64,000 nt of DNA. Source: Acidobacteriota bacterium. GTDB taxonomy: Bacteria; Acidobacteriota; Terriglobia; Bryobacterales; Bryobacteraceae. The stretch lies in contig JANXSF010000087.1 in NCBI GenBank assembly GCA_025352795.1, positions 1-64,000 of the forward strand, in the 5' to 3' direction. Below are positions 23,301-36,628 of the stretch, one piece after another. How positions within the stretch are numbered: position 1 is the first letter of the stretch; each line of letters starts with the position of its first letter. The translations under genes were made by a program, and so were the position numbers. The notes under the pieces were generated by a model. That model did no database searches. It saw nothing but the letters and a program-made list of their open reading frames with translations, and was not told where the DNA came from.

Positions 23301-24272
23301 ATGGGGTATGGATACCTGATAACAGAAATAATTGTCTGCTTGTTGGCTGCAGCAGCCCTGGGCGGAGGAATTATTTGGTGGTTGATGCGGCAAAAGCAAA
23401 CAGATTGGGAGACGCAATTGCAATCGTTGCGACAACAGTTAGATGTCTCCAGCGGACAACTTGCTGCGACCACAAAGAATCTAACAGCGGAATCTAAAAA
23501 AGTATCCGAGCTAACGGCAGGTGTGGCCGCCGCTGCTACCAAGCGTTCCGAGTTGGAAACTGCGGTTGCCGGAAAAGAGAAACTTTTGCAGGATTGGGCC
23601 GTGAAGTACGCCAGTCTGGAAGCAGATTTGAAAGTGCGTAGTGCGAGTCTAACGTCCGCCCGCACCGATACCGAAGCGTTGCGTCAGCGCTTGACGGCGT
23701 TGGAGGTCGGCACTCGGGGCAAGGATGAAGCATTGCAATCCCGTGGCAATGAGATGGAGAATTTGCGAGTCCAACTTGCTGTTCGATTAGCAAATGTGAA
23801 GGGTTTGGAAGTCCGTTTAGGAGAGCTGTCCACCTACCCGGAGAAGTTAAAAGATCAGGAAGCGAAGGTCGTTCTGGTTACCAGGCAACTGGATGCGGCA
23901 GTTACAAAATCGACGGCTGAACTGGCTGCTGCGAATATGCGTTTGAAGAGTTTGGAAGAACAGCTTAGAGAAGCAGACAAGGAACGCGATAGCTTCAGTG
24001 CGAAATCAAGTGAACGGGCGGGTGAAATTGCCCGGTTACGCGGACAGTTGGCCGACACGGAAAAACGCATGGCTTCTTTGACTATTGCCCAGCCAGCAAC
24101 TGCAAATGATTCTCTGCTGGCGAGCTTGAAAACTCAAATCAGCGGGTTACAGAATCGGCTGGTAGATGATGAATGCCGTTACCAGGCAATTCTCAAAGCG
24201 CGTGAAGAATTGATTGCTGAAATGCAGGGGAAGAGTACTACTGAAGAGCATGCTCGGGGGCAGTCGGCTTAG
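23301..24272 (+). CDS. Membrane-anchored coiled-coil protein
   Basis: 323 residues. One N-terminal membrane segment (ITEIIVCLLAAAALGGGIIW), then an almost continuous heptad-rich helix to the C-terminus (TDWETQLQSLRQQLDVSSGQ and similar Leu/Ala/Glu/Lys patterns). No catalytic domain. Directly downstream of the OmpA-like gene, so a structural envelope role such as a spacer or scaffold is plausible. Its stop overlaps the end of the reverse-strand TonB receptor gene by 4 bp. Confidence 0.75.
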   Translation: MGYGYLITEIIVCLLAAAALGGGIIWWLMRQKQTDWETQLQSLRQQLDVSSGQLAATTKNLTAESKKVSELTAGVAAAATKRSELETAVAGKEKLLQDWAVKYASLEADLKVRSASLTSARTDTEALRQRLTALEVGTRGKDEALQSRGNEMENLRVQLAVRLANVKGLEVRLGELSTYPEKLKDQEAKVVLVTRQLDAAVTKSTAELAAANMRLKSLEEQLREADKERDSFSAKSSERAGEIARLRGQLADTEKRMASLTIAQPATANDSLLASLKTQISGLQNRLVDDECRYQAILKAREELIAEMQGKSTTEEHARGQSA

Positions 24273-27016
24273 AATTCCCACTGAACGAGAGTCTGAAATT
24301 GCCGACGATTCGAGGATTCCACTGGACCCTTGAAACTATCCGTCAAGTAAGGACTACTGATCACCACGTTTGCACGATTGAGCAGGTTGTACACCTCAAT
24401 GCCGAACTGCAGTTTGGCGCGTTCATGGTGGGTCATAAAAGTCTTCATCAATCGGATATCCACTGAGGCTGTGCCCGGTCCGAAGAATGCATTGCGACCC
24501 GTTCCAACAGGGCGAGCGTTGATGGGGTAAGCACCCGTGCGATAGACATCGGTGGTGAGCAGCCCGTTGATGGGCCTTCCGCTCAAGAAGGAAGCGATGG
24601 GGGCAATGGTGAACCGCTCCAAGGTTTCTCTGGCCCAAACTGGCAGGAAGTTAAGAGCATCATCGGGGATTTCAAAAACGGCGCTGGCGGCAAACCGTTG
24701 GTGCTGGTGAAGCCTGGAATGAGCCCAATCGGCGCGAATGTTTAGGGGATTCAAAGGTTGTTCGTCAAAATCGGAACCATCATCCAGAACACGGCCAAGA
24801 TCGTAGGTAAATAAGTACGCCACTTCTTTGCTCATGCGACGATTGATGGAAATCGACATCCCTCGATACGCCGAGTTCGCTGTCTGTTCCAACAGGAACG
24901 AAGGTGGCAGGGTGCCTGTTGCATTTCGAATGCGAGGGAGGTGTGTTCCTTTCACAAGGTTCGATTCAAAAGTCAACTTAGTGTCTTTGTCAACGGCATA
25001 CTCCACGCCTATGCCTGCTTTGCGGGCGTAGGGGCTGGGGAAGTATTGAGACACCGAATAGATGGAGTGAGCCAAGCCCGGCAGAGGTTCAGCGGCAGTG
25101 CCTCCACGCAGTAGCCGGAACGCTTGCACGGCTGCCCAACCGACGGCATATTGTTCGAAACCTTGGGTGCCGTTTTTCCATGCGGCGTCGTTTAAGTAAG
25201 CCAGTGGATAGCGATCAAAAAACAGTCCTGAACCTAGCCGAACAACTAGCTTCTTCATTGGATTCCAGGCTAAGCCAAGTCTGGGAGCAACATTGGTTGA
25301 GGAAGCTGGAAAGCCCGTGGGCATGGCTTGTTTATCCAGCCTAGCACCAGCTTCCAGAGTCAGACCCTTGCGGATTTGCCAGCGTTCCTGAAAGTAGAAT
25401 CCAACGGGGATGGTGCGCATTTGGACAGAAGGATTTCCGAACGTTTGTATGTAGACATCGGGGCTGGCGGCAAGAAAGGAATCGAGCGTTGGAAAGACGT
25501 AAATTCCTGCTGATCGGTTTGCCAGACGTGCATCCAAGGTGATGGGTTGGATGGTTGCTCCGGCACTCAAGCGATGATGGCCAAGTACAAAATTGAAATT
25601 CTCAGCAACCTCAAAATGTTTTTCAGTGCGATCAGAATTAAGGCGCGGGGATTGCCCAATGCTCACAATGCCTGGGATTTCATACAGCGGGCCATAGCTA
25701 TTCGGGCGCACTTGCTGAGATCGTTCCGAGATTTGCACGCGCAGATCATTGACCACGGTGGGCGTAATTACCCGCAGCCAACTGGCGACAAACGAATGGT
25801 CCGACGTGATGCTGCTGCCGCCAGCGGAGCGATCAGAAAAATTGGAGGACCCCTGAACGTCTCCCAACACGCGGCCGCGAGAATAGGCATAACGGGCTGA
25901 GAAAGAATTGTGTTCATCCGCGAGATGATTCACTTTGAGGGAATATTCTATTCCGCGAGTGGCAGTGCGAAATAAACCGCGGGATGGTTCTTTTACAATT
26001 CCATTGACAAAGGAACTGGATTGCAAAGCTTGACGAATTCTGGAAAGTGAACTGGCTGGAGTCTCTGACCACTCTTCTTCAAAGTCGCGTTCCGTTTCGA
26101 ATGCTGTGGAGAAAAACGTCCGATTCTTTTTGATGGGTCCCATCAGTGATGCACCAGGCTGATAGCGGCTAAGACGTGGATGAAGACCGACATCCACCTC
26201 CGGTTTTCGAGCTCCCAGTGCGCCGTTTTGATAGAAAAAAGTGGCATCGCCGTGCCAAATATTTGTTCCTGGCCGGGTCACCATGTTCACAATGCCACCG
26301 GCTGCGCCGCCCAGTTCTGCACCTACAGACACACCGCCCACCACAAATTCTTCCACCATCTCCAAACCAATGGCCACGCGATTTCCACCAGTTGTTTCAT
26401 CCCGATTATCTACACCGTCAATGCTGATGCTGTTATTGCGACCACGCATGCCGGTGAAGCTAAATCCGCTATCGGCCAAGGGATTGCGAATTCCGGCCAT
26501 GCTCTTTTGCGAACCAGCTTGCGGGGAATTGGAAACTCCTGGTGCCAGCGCAACAAAGCTGATGTAGTTACGACTTTTGGAAGGAGCTTCTTCTATACGG
26601 TCGCTACCAAGGGCGGCGGTGGCGGAGGTTGCAGTGATGTCCAGCGTTCCAGTGCTTTCTGTAACTTCTATGCGACCAGCAACACTAGAAAGAGACAGGG
26701 TAAGCTTTTGTTCCACCAACTGGCCAATAGAAATAGTTAAGGAAGTAGCATCCACGGTGGTGAACCCTTCTTTTTCGATGTGAAGAGTATATTCGCCGGG
26801 GCTCAATTGAGAAAACGTGAAGACACCCTGTGATTCCGTTTTACCGGATCGAGTGCTTCCCGACGACTTATGCCGCAGCAATAAGGCGGCATCGGAGATG
26901 GAAGCTCCGGATGGATCGCTAAGTTGAACACGGATGGTTCCGCTGGAGGTGGCGCTTTGTGCGGAAAGCAGACATTGGCAGAGCGCAGTGAAGACCAGGA
27001 AAATACGACTAATCAC
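24269..27016 (-). CDS. TonB-dependent receptor with carboxypeptidase-regulatory N-terminal domain
   Basis: 915 residues from GTG 27016. Signal peptide (FLVFTALCQCLLSAQSA), then a CarboxypepD_reg-like domain (IRVQLSDPSGASISDAALLL; SQLSPGEYTLHIEKEGFTTV), a plug (MAGIRNPLADSGFSFTGMRG, SISIDGVDNRDETTGG, GGAAGGIVNMVTRPGTN) and a long beta-barrel ending FQTLVQWEF with a terminal Phe. It would import a large solute across the outer membrane using TonB. It is the last gene of a four-gene operon after a secreted metallopeptidase and two thioredoxin-fold proteins; its GTG shares one base with the preceding TAG (TAGTG), implying translational coupling. Confidence 0.92.
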   Translation of the reverse strand: MISRIFLVFTALCQCLLSAQSATSSGTIRVQLSDPSGASISDAALLLRHKSSGSTRSGKTESQGVFTFSQLSPGEYTLHIEKEGFTTVDATSLTISIGQLVEQKLTLSLSSVAGRIEVTESTGTLDITATSATAALGSDRIEEAPSKSRNYISFVALAPGVSNSPQAGSQKSMAGIRNPLADSGFSFTGMRGRNNSISIDGVDNRDETTGGNRVAIGLEMVEEFVVGGVSVGAELGGAAGGIVNMVTRPGTNIWHGDATFFYQNGALGARKPEVDVGLHPRLSRYQPGASLMGPIKKNRTFFSTAFETERDFEEEWSETPASSLSRIRQALQSSSFVNGIVKEPSRGLFRTATRGIEYSLKVNHLADEHNSFSARYAYSRGRVLGDVQGSSNFSDRSAGGSSITSDHSFVASWLRVITPTVVNDLRVQISERSQQVRPNSYGPLYEIPGIVSIGQSPRLNSDRTEKHFEVAENFNFVLGHHRLSAGATIQPITLDARLANRSAGIYVFPTLDSFLAASPDVYIQTFGNPSVQMRTIPVGFYFQERWQIRKGLTLEAGARLDKQAMPTGFPASSTNVAPRLGLAWNPMKKLVVRLGSGLFFDRYPLAYLNDAAWKNGTQGFEQYAVGWAAVQAFRLLRGGTAAEPLPGLAHSIYSVSQYFPSPYARKAGIGVEYAVDKDTKLTFESNLVKGTHLPRIRNATGTLPPSFLLEQTANSAYRGMSISINRRMSKEVAYLFTYDLGRVLDDGSDFDEQPLNPLNIRADWAHSRLHQHQRFAASAVFEIPDDALNFLPVWARETLERFTIAPIASFLSGRPINGLLTTDVYRTGAYPINARPVGTGRNAFFGPGTASVDIRLMKTFMTHHERAKLQFGIEVYNLLNRANVVISSPYLTDSFKGPVESSNRRQFQTLVQWEF

Positions 27017-27600
27017 TAGCCCTTCTTTTTTGGAGCTGGAACTGGTGTTGCGACGGCGGCGGCTTTCTTTGCGACTGGTAGTAACAGCGCTTTGATTTGT
27101 GTGCGCATGTTGGCTTCCTGCTTCACATCGTCAACAAAGAATGGATCATTGCCAGCGAATTGCGCCCGAATCATGCCTTCCCGATCAATGAATGCCAATT
27201 GCGGCATCATCATTGTTTCCATCTCAGAATGTTGCAGAAAGACCAGTGCGCTATCGCGGAGTTGCCAGCCCACAGGAAAAGAAATGCCTAAGTTTTTTAT
27301 GAAATCAGTGACGTACATGTGGGCCATATCATTGATGGCAACAGCCACGGGTGTGAACCCTTGCGAACCAAACTCGTGGTGCATTTTGGTGAGGATCTTG
27401 CAACTTTGCTGGCAATGAGAACAGGTGGTGAGAATGAATTCCAGAGCAACCACCTTGCCCTTATATTTGCTCAATAGCGTTTCCATTCCGCTGGGAGACT
27501 TGATCACCAATTCCGCTGCCTTCCGGGGAAGTTGCGCTGCACTGGACTGATTGGCAACAAGACAGGTGGCAGCAAGGACACTCAGCAAAAATCTGTTCAT
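27016..27600 (-). CDS. Periplasmic thioredoxin-fold (TlpA/peroxiredoxin-like) protein, CSHC
   Basis: Start at ATG 27600 (194 residues), where the signal peptide MNRFLLSVLAATCLVA begins. Thioredoxin fold with GKVVALEFILTTC and the active-site pair C60-SH-C63; the cis-Pro region MPQLAFIDREGMIRAQFAG follows. The C-terminus is a Lys/Ala/Pro tail (VAKKAAAVATPVPAPKKKG), odd for this family. It is a paralogue of the upstream gene at 27637 and probably handles disulfides or peroxide in the periplasm. Operon with peptidase and receptor. Confidence 0.85.
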   Translation of the reverse strand: MNRFLLSVLAATCLVANQSSAAQLPRKAAELVIKSPSGMETLLSKYKGKVVALEFILTTCSHCQQSCKILTKMHHEFGSQGFTPVAVAINDMAHMYVTDFIKNLGISFPVGWQLRDSALVFLQHSEMETMMMPQLAFIDREGMIRAQFAGNDPFFVDDVKQEANMRTQIKALLLPVAKKAAAVATPVPAPKKKG

Positions 27601-27636
27601 GGTCTTCCTATGGTAATCCAAAATAAGCACCATTGA

Positions 27637-28212
27637 TTATTTTTTGGTAACCACGGCGGCCACGGCTTTTTTGACAGGAGCAGCCGTAACCCCAGCGAGC
27701 AATTCCAAAATCTTCTTTCTGGTTTCAGCTTCCTCATCCTTCAAATCCCCGCCCACGTGCTGTTCACGGATGATGCCTTGTTTATCGATGAAAACTGTTT
27801 GGGGCACCATGAAGCTTTGCATATTGGAAATATGCAAATACGGCATAGCCTTTTCACGTTCCGTGTAGCCAACTGGAAAGGTTAGGGCAAACTGTTCAAT
27901 GAACTTCGGAATCAACGGGACATGATCTTCCCCGGCAGCAATGGCCAATGGTTGAAAGCCTTTCGGTCCCAGTTCCTTATACAACTTCTGCAAAATCGCA
28001 ACGGTCTTCTGGCAGTGTGGGCAAGTGGGATTGAAGAATTCAATCACCACAACTTTGCCTCGAAAGGAACTCAACAACCGGTCCTTACTTTCATCTTTAT
28101 GCTTGCCCTCTTTGTCGAGAACCTTCACGATGAACTCGGGCGATTTGCGAGGCAATTCAACCGGGAAAGCCGCCACTGCGGACAATGTCAGGAGCACCAA
28201 TAGCTTTGTCAT
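27637..28212 (-). CDS. Periplasmic thioredoxin-fold (TlpA-like) protein, CPHC
   Basis: Start at ATG 28212 (191 residues), 10 nt after the peptidase stop and opening a signal peptide (MTKLLVLLTLSAVAAFPVEL). Thioredoxin fold: GKVVVIEFFNPTC with C64-PH-C67, the DsbA-type CPHC pair, then MVPQTVFIDKQGIIREQHVG with cis-Pro. It also ends in a short basic Ala/Val/Lys tail. Redox partner or chaperone for exported proteins, perhaps the adjacent peptidase or receptor. Confidence 0.87.
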   Translation of the reverse strand: MTKLLVLLTLSAVAAFPVELPRKSPEFIVKVLDKEGKHKDESKDRLLSSFRGKVVVIEFFNPTCPHCQKTVAILQKLYKELGPKGFQPLAIAAGEDHVPLIPKFIEQFALTFPVGYTEREKAMPYLHISNMQSFMVPQTVFIDKQGIIREQHVGGDLKDEEAETRKKILELLAGVTAAPVKKAVAAVVTKK

Positions 28213-28222
28213 ATTCTTTAGT

Positions 28223-29416
28223 TTACAAAATCCCTTCCAGGCTTGAAACTGTCTGTCCGTTGCGGCGCAATTCAAATCGCCCGGACGCAGTTGAGCCCAA
28301 TACTTCATTTATGACACTAGAACTGTCTTCCCGATAGCCCTTTGATTTCTTAGCCAGTACTATTTTGTAGACCTCAAAGTACTGTTTGGCGCTATCTTCG
28401 GAATCGAATTCCACTGCATGGACCAGAATTGGATGCTTATCCTTTTTCCGCTCCCAGACGGAAAGACGTCCACCCCTCCAATGGGTTCCAATTTTTTCGG
28501 CCATTTCTTTCCCCGCATATTCACGAAGCAGCATGGTGACGTCGAATTCCCCCAATGCTCCATCGGTCACTTGCTTGTAATCTTTTTGACCAACGAACTT
28601 GGCAAGTTTAGGTTCTGTGGGGGACTTCCTATCAAAGTAGGCTTGCGGATGAAGTATTTGTTGGGTGGAGACAGGGGCGTGTTTGAACACTTCCCCAAAT
28701 GCAGATTTACCCATCTTTCGGATGACTTCATTTTGAAACAACATGCCGCTGGTATATGGAAACCGCAATGATTCACGAATGTATAGGGGGGCTTTGGCAA
28801 GTTCGGGATATTGCGCGGCGGAATCATTCATGCTGGCGGCCATGTCTGAAAGCCTGGTGGAATCTACTAAACTTTGTCCTAACTTTTTGGCCATTCGTTC
28901 CATCATCAGCCATTGCGCCTGGCCTTCCATGACGGCTCCGCGGGCAGTGGCGGCGTCGTCTGTGGTGCTTTTCAGGATATATTTTCCGAGGTTAAAATGT
29001 TGGTCGGCAAGGGCGTGGGCCAGTTCGTGAAACAGGGCGATGCGCTGCATTTCTTCATCCTGACCTTCCAGCACAAACATGCGCTTTTTCTTGTAGTCAT
29101 AAAATGCTGCGGCTTGCTCTGTAACTACTGATACGGTGGTTTCCTTCAAATCGAAACCTGCTGGAACAAGACCAAACAATTTCAGTGCCAGTTCTTCGGC
29201 GTGCATCTGGGCAGGGGTGATGGCTTCAGCCACACGACCCTGCATGAACGCTTTGAGTTTGTCGCGATTGATGAAATCTCTCTCCACCCGTTTCAGCGGA
29301 GAAAGCCCTGTAAGTTGGCTTAATTCTGCAATCATGGGTTCAATTTCATCGAATAGTTTAGGGGATGGCTGGGCAAGCAGCGCATTGGCGAGGAGCAAAT
29401 AAAAGAGAGGCTTCAA
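28223..29416 (-). CDS. Secreted HExxH metallopeptidase-like protein
   Basis: 397 residues from TTG 29416; no ATG lies near the leader MKPLFYLLLANALLAQ. The zinc-peptidase motif H130-E-L-A-H134 is followed by E164 (AVMEGQAQW), the spacing of gluzincin-type enzymes. The flanking text FHELAHALADQHFNLGKYIL resembles acidobacterial/actinobacterial putative metallopeptidases of unknown substrate. It is the first gene of the operon to the TonB receptor. Function is inferred from the motif only. Confidence 0.75.
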   Translation of the reverse strand: MKPLFYLLLANALLAQPSPKLFDEIEPMIAELSQLTGLSPLKRVERDFINRDKLKAFMQGRVAEAITPAQMHAEELALKLFGLVPAGFDLKETTVSVVTEQAAAFYDYKKKRMFVLEGQDEEMQRIALFHELAHALADQHFNLGKYILKSTTDDAATARGAVMEGQAQWLMMERMAKKLGQSLVDSTRLSDMAASMNDSAAQYPELAKAPLYIRESLRFPYTSGMLFQNEVIRKMGKSAFGEVFKHAPVSTQQILHPQAYFDRKSPTEPKLAKFVGQKDYKQVTDGALGEFDVTMLLREYAGKEMAEKIGTHWRGGRLSVWERKKDKHPILVHAVEFDSEDSAKQYFEVYKIVLAKKSKGYREDSSSVINEVLGSTASGRFELRRNGQTVSSLEGIL

Positions 29417-34035: not shown

Positions 34036-35276
34036 ACGCGGAAATCATAGCCGTCGGGTCTGAACTTCTTACGCCGACCAAGATCGATACAAATTCCTTG
34101 TGGCTCACCGATCAGTTGAACACATTGGGAATTGAAGTGGTTTTGAAATCCATTGTGGCGGATGATCGGCCTCGTCTAACTGCGCAGATTGCAGCGGCGT
34201 TTGAACGGTCTGATTTGGTGCTGATCACGGGCGGCTTAGGCCCAACGGAAGACGATGTAACTCGCGATGCGGCGGCTGCAGCACTGGGCATTGGACAAAC
34301 GTTTCAGCCGAAAATTGCTGATCAAATTGCTGCCTTGTTTGTACGCTTGGGTCGCAAGACCATGGCGGAAAACAATAAGCGTCAGGCCTTTGTTTTAGAT
34401 GGTGCGGAAGTTTTGGCTAATCCTCGAGGCACGGCCCCAGGACAATGGATTGCGAAGAACGGACGCGTGGTGATTTTGCTGCCTGGACCGCCGCGCGAAA
34501 TGAAGCCGCTGTTCACGGAACAGTGCTGCCCGCGCATCGAAAAGTTGCTGCCGCCCATTGTGATTCGCACTCGTTTCTATCGTGTGGCGGGGATCGGCGA
34601 ATCGGATCTGGATCAGTTGATTGCTCCGGTGTACACGAAATACACGAATCCGGTTACGACAATTCTGGCTTCGCCAGGCGATATTCATATCCATCTGCGA
34701 GCTCGTTGCACCACAGCAGCGGAGGCTGAAACGCTGCTGACCGAAGTAGCCGAACCGATTCTGGAACTGCTTGGGGATCGTGTATATTCCGACGATGGTG
34801 CCGACCTGGAAACAACCGTGGGTCGCAAACTGAAGGCGAAGAACGCTTGGCTGGCTGTGGCCGAAAGCTGCACAGGTGGACTGATAGGGGAACGCATTAC
34901 CAGTGTCGCCGGAAGTTCCAATTATTTCCGTGGCGGATTTCTAACTTACACGGCACAGATGAAACACGAAATGGTTGGTGTCCCACTGGAAATGTTGGCC
35001 CAACACACGGCGGTTAGTGAGCCCGTAGTGAAAGCGATGGCTAGCGGTGCTCGTATTAAAACGAAGGCCGATTACGCACTTTCAGTGACTGGTTACGCCG
35101 GACCGGAAGGTGGTGACGACGGCACTCCTGCTGGCCTGGTCTGGATCGGACTGGCGACTCCTGTTGGCGTGGAAGCGAACAAGTTTCAGTTATGGGGCGA
35201 TCGGGAACGGGTTCGTTCCGTGGCTGGTATTTATGCTTTGGATTGGCTTCGTAAAAAGCTTTCCGAAAGGTCTTAG
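34032..35276 (+). CDS. cinA: CinA-like protein (NMN amidohydrolase / competence-damage protein)
   Basis: 414 residues with ATGA overlap to the previous gene. N-terminal MoCF-binding-like domain (MNAEIIAVGSELLTPTKIDT, ITGGLGPTEDDVTRDAAAAA) and C-terminal PncC domain (LAVAESCTGGLIGERITSVA, YALSVTGYAGPEGGDDGTPA). Two-domain CinA proteins hydrolyse ADP-ribose and deamidate NMN in pyridine nucleotide salvage. Complete length. Confidence 0.95.
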   Translation: MNAEIIAVGSELLTPTKIDTNSLWLTDQLNTLGIEVVLKSIVADDRPRLTAQIAAAFERSDLVLITGGLGPTEDDVTRDAAAAALGIGQTFQPKIADQIAALFVRLGRKTMAENNKRQAFVLDGAEVLANPRGTAPGQWIAKNGRVVILLPGPPREMKPLFTEQCCPRIEKLLPPIVIRTRFYRVAGIGESDLDQLIAPVYTKYTNPVTTILASPGDIHIHLRARCTTAAEAETLLTEVAEPILELLGDRVYSDDGADLETTVGRKLKAKNAWLAVAESCTGGLIGERITSVAGSSNYFRGGFLTYTAQMKHEMVGVPLEMLAQHTAVSEPVVKAMASGARIKTKADYALSVTGYAGPEGGDDGTPAGLVWIGLATPVGVEANKFQLWGDRERVRSVAGIYALDWLRKKLSERS

Positions 35277-36628
35277 TCTTGCGGCGGTGGGACACCTAAA
35301 ATCAGGGGTGCCTTCTTTGGTGCATCGCCCTTAAATTGCAACACGACATCCACAGTCTTGGTCTTCTCATCTAAGTTCAGCTTCGCCTTGGTTTCTTCGC
35401 CAAGATGATCAAACAAGCCCTGCTCCCGAATATCGGCCAGGAATTTACTGGGATATTCCGCATTGAAAGGTTTGCCTTCTTTCATGCCCCACATCTTTCG
35501 GATAGGAGGTTCTGAAAGCAGATCCAGCCCTTCAATCTTCAATGATCGGAAGGTGAATTGCGGCCCGGCAGAGGCAAAGTATTTTACGGCCACCGTTTTT
35601 TTATCATCGTTGTAAGTGCGTTCATACCGGGCTTTGGCTTGCATGTAGCCGCGCCCTTGCATGAACTTCACCATCTTATCCTTACCCTGCTCTACGAGGT
35701 CGAAATTAGCGACTTCGCCAGTTTTCAGTTTGATGTCATCCAGCAATTCTTTGGCCGGATTCCAACCATCCACTTCCACCGCGTTCAGTGCATAGGGCAG
35801 GCCCTCTTCAATCACAATTTTCACGACCAGTCCGGTAACGTCCTTCGCTAGTTCGGTGGTGATTTTGGCCCATTTCACGCGCATTAATCCCTTAGCTTCA
35901 TAGAATGGCCGAATCGCCAGATCCAGAATTTCACGCATCCGGGTTTCAGAATAGGCAGCCCCCACGGCCACTTCCGCAATCTTGTTTCGGAGAACTTCGG
36001 ATCGTAATTCCTTGGCGCCAGTGAATTGTATTTCGGCGATGGTCAGCGGTGCAGCGGCGGATCGGAAGACAATGGTCAGCCGCTCAGCGTTGTCAGCGAC
36101 AACTTTGGCGGCCACGTCGCTGGTATTCATGTAATCTTTCAGGGTCTTGACGTAACGCTTCAAAACGTGCTCAGTTGCAGGAACCAAGGCCCCAAAGAGT
36201 GGATCAGACGCCAACAGCACATCGCGCAATTCGGCGTCAGGACGGGGCAATCCCTCAAAGCGCACTTGATAAACCTGATCCAGTTCCTGCACCTCAAAGG
36301 TGACGGCAAAGGCTTTGCCTGAAGGCGTCGGCTGATAGCGATAGGCAACGGTGGAAAATGTTCCAGCCTCCACCAATCGAGCCTGCGCTTTATCGAAGAT
36401 TTCCTTGGATCCAACATCGCCAACTTTGAGACCGCTGACTTTGCTCACCTGTTCGGGTTTGTAACGTTTGGTGCCTTCGACAGAGATCCGCTCAATTAGG
36501 AAGTCTCTTGTGACGGCTGGCTCTTTGGAAATTGCGATGGGTTTCTTTACAGGAGGTGGCGGGCGTCGTGGGGTTTGAGGCAGGCAGGTGGTGCATACGA
36601 GCAAGCCGGAAATCAAAAGCTTTAGCAT
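35273..36628 (-). CDS. POTRA-repeat protein without an outer-membrane barrel
   Basis: 451 residues with a lead peptide (MLKLLISGLLVCTTCLPQ). Successive POTRA-like units are seen: ERISVEGTKRYKPEQVSKVS, VRFEGLPRPDAELRDVLL, IQFTGAKELRSEVLRNKIAE, VEVDGWNPAKELLDDIKL and LKIEGLDLLSEPPIRKMWG. A BamA/TamA barrel would need another 300 or more residues, yet the gene ends at LILGVPPPQD, 4 bp inside cinA's end. It may be a periplasmic POTRA adaptor or a barrel-less Omp85 relative. It does not look like a recent truncation, since the end is clean. Confidence 0.75.
   Translation of the reverse strand: MLKLLISGLLVCTTCLPQTPRRPPPPVKKPIAISKEPAVTRDFLIERISVEGTKRYKPEQVSKVSGLKVGDVGSKEIFDKAQARLVEAGTFSTVAYRYQPTPSGKAFAVTFEVQELDQVYQVRFEGLPRPDAELRDVLLASDPLFGALVPATEHVLKRYVKTLKDYMNTSDVAAKVVADNAERLTIVFRSAAAPLTIAEIQFTGAKELRSEVLRNKIAEVAVGAAYSETRMREILDLAIRPFYEAKGLMRVKWAKITTELAKDVTGLVVKIVIEEGLPYALNAVEVDGWNPAKELLDDIKLKTGEVANFDLVEQGKDKMVKFMQGRGYMQAKARYERTYNDDKKTVAVKYFASAGPQFTFRSLKIEGLDLLSEPPIRKMWGMKEGKPFNAEYPSKFLADIREQGLFDHLGEETKAKLNLDEKTKTVDVVLQFKGDAPKKAPLILGVPPPQD

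Follow-up and report, generated by a model that had tools for sequence, protein, structure and literature searches.

A conserved pair of metallopeptidase and thioredoxin-fold genes, probably serving envelope maintenance, within a four-gene locus of an Acidobacteriota bacterium

On the minus strand of the window, which denotes the whole 64,000-nucleotide stretch of DNA analysed, from a soil bacterium of the Acidobacteriota, the list of open reading frames places four genes between positions 24269 and 29416, in the transcription order peptidase, redoxin 1, redoxin 2 and receptor (Table 1). Gaps of 10 nt (peptidase to redoxin 1) and 36 nt (redoxin 1 to redoxin 2) are followed by a 1-nt overlap between redoxin 2 and the receptor, within TAGTG, which confirms the tight coupling given in the preliminary description. 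Upstream of the peptidase, 121 nt separate it from a divergent FKBP gene. At the opposite end, the receptor gene and a coiled-coil gene on the other strand (23301–24272) overlap tail to tail by four bases (24269–24272).

Table 1. Coordinates of the genes, motifs and domains discussed in the text.
Feature	Positions	Strand	Details
Peptidase gene	28223–29416	minus	397 aa, TTG start (open reading frame)
HELAH motif (HExxH) of the peptidase	29015–29029	minus	residues 130–134, read from sequence
C-terminal domain of the peptidase	28226–28624	minus	about residues 265–397; predicted PknH/TiME/PsbP-like alpha-beta fold
Redoxin 1 gene	27637–28212	minus	191 aa from ATG at 28212 (open reading frame)
Redoxin 1 active site, CPHC	28012–28023	minus	read from sequence
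Redoxin 2 gene	27016–27600	minus	194 aa from ATG at 27600 (open reading frame)
Redoxin 2 active site, CSHC	27412–27423	minus	read from sequence
Receptor gene	24269–27016	minus	915 aa, GTG start (open reading frame)
POTRA-only BamA-like protein	35273–36628	minus	451 aa; window ortholog

The identical four-gene order with tight junctions was found in one congener (G001), with a first gap of 11 nt and the sequence TAAGTG, without overlap, before the receptor; the tightness of the junctions is conserved between the two genomes, TAGTG itself is not. The four proteins are 62–76% identical between the genomes, and the four genes, with pN values of 0.15–0.25 and pS values of 0.76–0.81 (saturated), are all under purifying selection within the genus. 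Promoter-like matches at the locus numbered 7 (4.0 in shuffled sequences, sd 2.0) and terminator-like matches 6 (6.1 in shuffled sequences, sd 2.4), counts that are uninformative on a single transcript, neither for nor against, and it is the spacing that suggests that the four genes are transcribed together. Signal-like N-termini, read by eye, point to export of the peptidase and the redoxin.

The first gene encodes a putative zinc metallopeptidase, presumably with protease activity. Residues H130, E131, H134, D138 and E164 are invariant among 43 of 43 aligned homologs and, with E164 as the presumed third zinc ligand, the sequence carries the HExxH motif and downstream glutamate that characterise gluzincin zinc metallopeptidases. 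Against the NCBIfam model of the Hvo_1808 family (NF038145) it scored 98.7 bits over residues 42–264 (E 4.3e-28), below the cut-off of 200, and it is a relative of that family rather than a member. Hvo_1808 was found to be processed and mainly cell-associated in Haloferax (PMC2945643); unlike it, the window protein has no cysteine anywhere in its sequence, and hence no N-terminal lipobox. Pfam returned weak matches only (DUF6782 and M78), and when 43 members were scanned at E up to 0.1, Peptidase_M48 was not one of the 17 Pfam families that they matched.

A PDB sequence search with the peptidase gave nothing at E 1, whereas its profile gave two IrrE-type proteins (E 0.03–0.05), titin (E 1.1) and nothing else. 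The full AlphaFold2 model, built from three sequences, was weak, with a mean pLDDT of 61.4, and Foldseek with this model returned nothing at E 0.001. The N-terminal, catalytic domain modelled alone, also with low confidence (mean pLDDT 59.7), matched best a putative hydrolase of Chloroflexus (3cmn; Z 10.0, 5.9 Å, 204 residues), followed by M1 zinc peptidases (Z 6.0–8.1) and the M30 peptidase 7bb8 (Z 5.7), all of these lying below the Z of about 13 recommended with this tool when models are helical. The C-terminal domain, with a pLDDT of about 67–91, was aligned by VIA-align to the extracellular domain of PknH (4esq, Z 8.4), to TiME (7cu8/7cu9, Z 7.9) and to PsbP (Z 4.9), where Z values near 8 can mean merely a common arrangement. 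Taken with the motif, the models lend fair support to a gluzincin assignment, not proof.

Both redoxins are assigned by sequence to a TlpA/ResA-like fold. Redoxin 1 scored 54.2 bits against AhpC-TSA (cut-off 26), with ResA (4nmu, E 1.5e-11) as the nearest solved chain by sequence, and redoxin 2, which is 41% identical to it, scored 46.0 bits against Redoxin (cut-off 26.6) and 41.5 against AhpC-TSA (cut-off 26). Among 42 aligned redoxins, both cysteines and the cis-proline are invariant, and 38 have a CxHC site (30 CPHC, 5 CSHC, 2 CTHC and 1 CAHC, the others being 2 CPTC and 2 CPSC); the residue preceding the cis-proline is M in 15, V in 14, Y in 12 and F in 1. A division of labour between CPHC and CSHC was considered and rejected: redoxin 2, which has CSHC in the window, has CPHC in the congener, where both redoxins thus share one site.

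The redoxins were compared with two known groups. With TlpA, ResA and CcmG they share the fold family by sequence, the CxxC site and the cis-proline, but they are mostly CPHC, bear in one family of genomes a basic Ala/Lys tail, and fall below the cut-offs of all the NCBIfam models for ResA, TlpA and DsbE (best 59.4 against 170, for ResA). With the DsbA oxidases they share CPHC (30/42) and valine before the cis-proline (14/42). The redox potential is said to be governed by the XX dipeptide together with the residue ahead of the cis-proline; CPHC is the commonest DsbA motif, and with valine at that position it forms the commonest DsbA pair (PMC4460558). Unlike DsbA, however, neither window redoxin matched the DSBA domain (PF01323; Pfam, E 0.1), and the genome itself, which is 96.58% complete, gave no match to DsbB (PF02600) or VKOR (PF07884) at E 0.001. 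One DsbD_TM match was found in this genome, and cysteine counts in its exported proteins had no even-number bias, a crude test that is not used as main evidence. Because DsbB and VKOR matches are lacking, DsbD_TM is matched once and even cysteine numbers are not favoured, there is no clear sign of an oxidising periplasm. The active sites and the genome thus pull in different directions, and the redoxins may act as oxidases or as reductases. Reduction, the role first proposed for them, does not hold as a default, since CPHC, their prevailing site, is also the one found most often in the DsbA oxidases (PMC4460558).

The relation to ResA and TlpA also bears on a very improbable alternative, in which the redoxins would act on copper or haem proteins in metallation or cytochrome maturation, as TlpA, ResA and CcmG do, while the peptidase would clear failed apoproteins. 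The nearest solved chains by sequence include both ResA and TlpA, and the one DsbD_TM protein could supply electrons. Scores far below the ResA, TlpA and DsbE cut-offs speak against it, as does the lack of a cytochrome or copper gene among the four. The active sites of ResA and TlpA are CEPC/CVPC, from which the CPHC of the redoxins differs, and this was also counted against metallation.

The basic Ala/Lys tails pointed out in the preliminary description are real in both redoxins, but they are not specific to the operon. By a fixed rule for the C-terminal 15 residues (3 or more K/R, no D/E, and 12 or more drawn from A, K, P, T, R, S, V, G and Q), which redoxin 1 and redoxin 2 both satisfy, such a tail occurs in 12 of 315 other mechanical gene calls (409 kb) of the same genome. 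Among redoxins of the clade it occurs in 26 of 48 from genome family f1 (one of the 48 being cut by a contig end), in 0 of 1 from f2 and in 0 of 22 from f3. Within f1 it is found in 15 of 29 peptidase-linked and 11 of 19 unlinked redoxins, and the tails, rejected as a mark of the operon, are a trait of the redoxin clade in this one family.

Conservation of the gene order was followed across 61 genomes, the window's own (G000) included, with gene calls made mechanically in the controls; a degenerate-pattern scan of genome contigs found two relatives. The peptidase is present in 53 of the 61 genomes, own included; 52 of these carry one copy, and the exception, G030, has a second, distant one. 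The DNA surrounding this second copy and all 53 primary loci was read, and three loci that stop at a contig end were left out, giving 50 loci for counting. At 36 of these 50 loci the peptidase is immediately followed, on its own strand, by a redoxin belonging to one clade, either as a single gene (27 loci), as a tandem pair (8) or sharing one open frame with the peptidase (1). Counted by genus, the pair occurs in 24 of 38, and within the order at 36 of 47 loci. Two further loci have a redoxin 1.3 and 4.6 kb downstream of the peptidase; at the other 12, 3 of which are outside the order, it was absent from the DNA read. Outside the order, none of 28 loci (the best-scoring 28 of 110 genomes with a match) had the redoxin closer to the peptidase than about 1.5 kb. 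The linker in the single-frame case (G017, locus L085, contig 555; 613 codons) still resembles a signal peptide, so that a true fusion is no more likely than a lost stop codon or a misassembly.

The conserved element is therefore smaller than the four-gene set and consists of the peptidase and a thioredoxin-fold gene; that these two belong together, as had been suggested from the window, is borne out by the 36 of 50 loci. The receptor gave a different picture. The receptor matched OMP_b-brl_4 (PF25183) with 242.7 bits (cut-off 30) and CarboxypepD_reg (PF13620) with 57.4 bits (cut-off 32.3), and by these domains it is classed as an outer-membrane protein of the TonB-dependent-receptor type, with an OMP_b-brl_4 barrel and an N-terminal CarboxypepD_reg domain. 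The full four-gene order was found at 2 of the 50 peptidase loci, those of the window genome and its congener in one genus; at three of the 50 (G013, G016 and G017), less than 0.8 kb of contig remained downstream and a receptor could not be seen. Orthologs in other genera, identified from 14 candidates scored per genome, so that there may be more, were found in G004, G010, G019, G023 and G044 with 47–52% identity over most of their length, and 0 of these 5 had a redoxin or peptidase beside them. The clean case is G019, in which the peptidase and tandem redoxins lie on one contig and the receptor on another; in G010, the upstream side of the receptor is cut by a contig end and the peptidase and redoxin lie inside other contigs (L071, L140). 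Neighbours of the orthologs that Pfam could name were mutually unrelated (DUF1501, Kelch, metallophosphoesterase and AP-endonuclease-like), and 6 of the 10 scanned were without a Pfam match. Near the peptidase of G035, a weak receptor-like match (29%, 47 bits) lies upstream on the opposite strand; the downstream side of this locus is cut by a contig end.

These results bear on the system that had been proposed from the window, in which the peptidase would release disulfide-containing peptides or metal-peptides, the redoxins would reduce them and the receptor would import the product. The pairing of peptidase and redoxin stands; the four-part system, expected to stay together in relatives, was found in one genus only and was rejected as a general system. 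The import reading is quite improbable; in its favour are the tight order kept in two species of the genus and the purifying selection on all four genes. Besides the missing linkage in other genera, at least 65 further receptors with this fold are encoded in the genome (65 of 120 candidates scored), which makes a receptor beside the operon a weak sign. Pfam (E 0.1) gave no SusD-like gene in the four-gene set or in either of the two genes adjoining the receptor. Bacteroidota have receptor loci of the SusCD/RagAB type with peptidase or TlpA-like genes. The window resembles them in the TonB-dependent receptor adjoining a peptidase gene, but differs in lacking a SusD-like gene and in keeping the receptor with the pair in one genus only. 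For Prevotella intermedia, a receptor–peptidase gene group is listed in one table of PMC10434189. On the best reading, the receptor is a lineage-specific passenger, which joined the transcription unit within this genus and may well have a substrate of its own. It is thus not usable as an argument for peptide import, and a false lead is removed.

What lies upstream of the peptidase varies by lineage. An MFS_3-family gene is directly upstream at 11 loci of families f1 and f2 (L036, L057, L058, L059, L061, L062, L067, L069, L071, L072 and L085), several of these genes overlapping the peptidase start; L036, L057, L062 and L072 were assigned by Pfam scan and the others as blastp relatives. An unnamed family, one member of which was scanned and had no Pfam match, takes this place at 10 f3 loci, and a POTRA protein in four f3 genomes of two genera (G048, G049, G050 and G053). 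The window's ortholog of the latter is barrel-less, matching positions 1–379 of 741 in the BamA model, and its gene lies about 6 kb upstream of the peptidase on the same strand. The POTRA protein occurs in 56 of 61 genomes, with one match each except in G018, and is unlinked from the peptidase in most of them; the position of the gene is a weak pointer to outer-membrane assembly.

The MFS_3 genes bring in a further, remote alternative, namely that the pair matures a small exported disulfide peptide or metallophore, which in the relatives the MFS protein would export and in the window's genus the receptor would re-import. Two MFS_3 proteins scanned by NCBIfam scored 136 and 146 bits against EntS, a resemblance in keeping with such a route although both values are below the cut-off of 324. 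Moreover, the window and G001 both lack an MFS gene upstream of the peptidase, and the gaps of 10 and 36 nt, together with the 121 nt before the FKBP gene, leave little room for a precursor gene.

The leading rival is that the operon is shared and the substrate is not, the redoxin being a thiol enzyme of general use in the periplasm, whose gene is often transcribed together with those of exported hydrolases, this peptidase included, and with other genes. We regard this as possible, though doubtful. Redoxins of the clade were also found directly behind PhoD-like phosphatases, a PQQ/BamB-like protein, an amino-acid permease and an aldose-epimerase-like protein, for which reason they may be generalists, and an S9 peptidase lies near one redoxin that is unlinked from the peptidase. 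Presence across the 61 genomes, with a redoxin counted at E 1e-25, was both in 46, peptidase only in 7, redoxin only in 6 and neither in 2, so that the two are hardly correlated; this weak co-occurrence, and the window peptidase being without cysteine, also favour a general enzyme. Against this stands the direct order of peptidase and redoxin, which spans 24 genera at 32–76% peptidase identity and is commoner than any other neighbour seen (MFS at 11 loci, the unnamed f3 family at 10 and POTRA at 4).

The history of the linkage was read from a redoxin tree of 70 rows, which requires 12 changes between rows taken from peptidase loci and rows taken from other places. All of 500 shuffles required more (mean 19.4); the linkage therefore changed repeatedly, but not at random. 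A single ancestral tandem duplication of the redoxin was not supported, the copies of G024 being mutual nearest relatives and those of the window not. In G018, which is without the peptidase, the two redoxin copies are also each other's nearest relatives. A second redoxin of this clade, unlinked from the peptidase, lies directly behind a large gene at three loci (L150, L151 and L152); that gene is a PhoD-like phosphatase in L150 and L151, and the L150 redoxin lies ahead of an alpha/beta hydrolase.

A direct action of the redoxins on the peptidase was set aside. The window peptidase has no cysteine and hence offers the redoxins no disulfide to act on, and it is unlikely to be their client here; across 54 homologs, no cysteine is among the columns kept in 90%, while some subgroups share one or two. 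The simplest task that an exported peptidase and an exported thiol enzyme could have in common is the fate of cysteine-bearing exported proteins, from folding and reshuffling to the clearing of those that fail.

The locus is thus probably an envelope-maintenance unit rather than a dedicated import system. The reading we prefer, at a rough probability of 0.42, is a two-part envelope module in which peptidase and redoxin act on the same exported proteins in quality control. Its parts would be an exported gluzincin-type zinc metallopeptidase and an exported thiol-disulfide oxidoreductase of TlpA/ResA fold with a DsbA-like CxHC site, present twice in the window's genus. The redoxin would make, break or reshuffle disulfides in envelope proteins, and the peptidase would remove those that fail to mature or trim them once opened; the receptor would have joined the transcription unit in the window's genus, and its substrate need not be common to the pair. 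Such a shared substrate and quality-control role are suggested by the conserved order; the invariant active-site residues, the purifying selection, the POTRA gene as a weak pointer and the processed, cell-associated Hvo_1808 were also counted in favour. Counted against them are the 12 of 50 loci without a redoxin in the DNA read and the 2 with a distant one, the lack of the pair at the 28 loci outside the order, the weak co-occurrence across genomes, the other genes that redoxins of the clade follow, the lack of signs of an oxidising periplasm, the cysteines of some peptidase subgroups, the low confidence of the structure models, the mostly unlinked POTRA gene and the commoner upstream neighbours, which are MFS_3 and the unnamed family and not assembly factors.

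The arrangement would be somewhat like that of BepA bearing on the disulfide-rearranging LptD in E. coli. BepA is an exported HExxH zinc metallopeptidase that degrades this outer-membrane protein when its assembly stalls (PMC8423444), and it is the closest worked case among those consulted. The window peptidase resembles BepA in being an HExxH metallopeptidase that is also, on its N-terminus, presumably exported; unlike BepA, it belongs to a group of 43 members without an M48 Pfam match (E up to 0.1) and has a thiol enzyme encoded beside it.

A bolder form of quality control, which we consider unlikely, would be an undescribed proteostasis unit in which one locus runs both the disulfide handling and the proteolysis of outer-membrane proteins in a genome where neither DsbB nor VKOR is recognisable. 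There, enzymes of TlpA fold with a DsbA-like CPHC site would work alongside a metallopeptidase related to Hvo_1808, whose PknH/PsbP-like domain would serve as a sensor or bind substrate. No report of this gene set appeared among the matches listed in the open-licence literature (titles and abstract beginnings). In an organism without a DsbB or VKOR match, the conserved peptidase–redoxin pair provides a concrete and testable set of genes for studying how disulfides are handled in the envelope.
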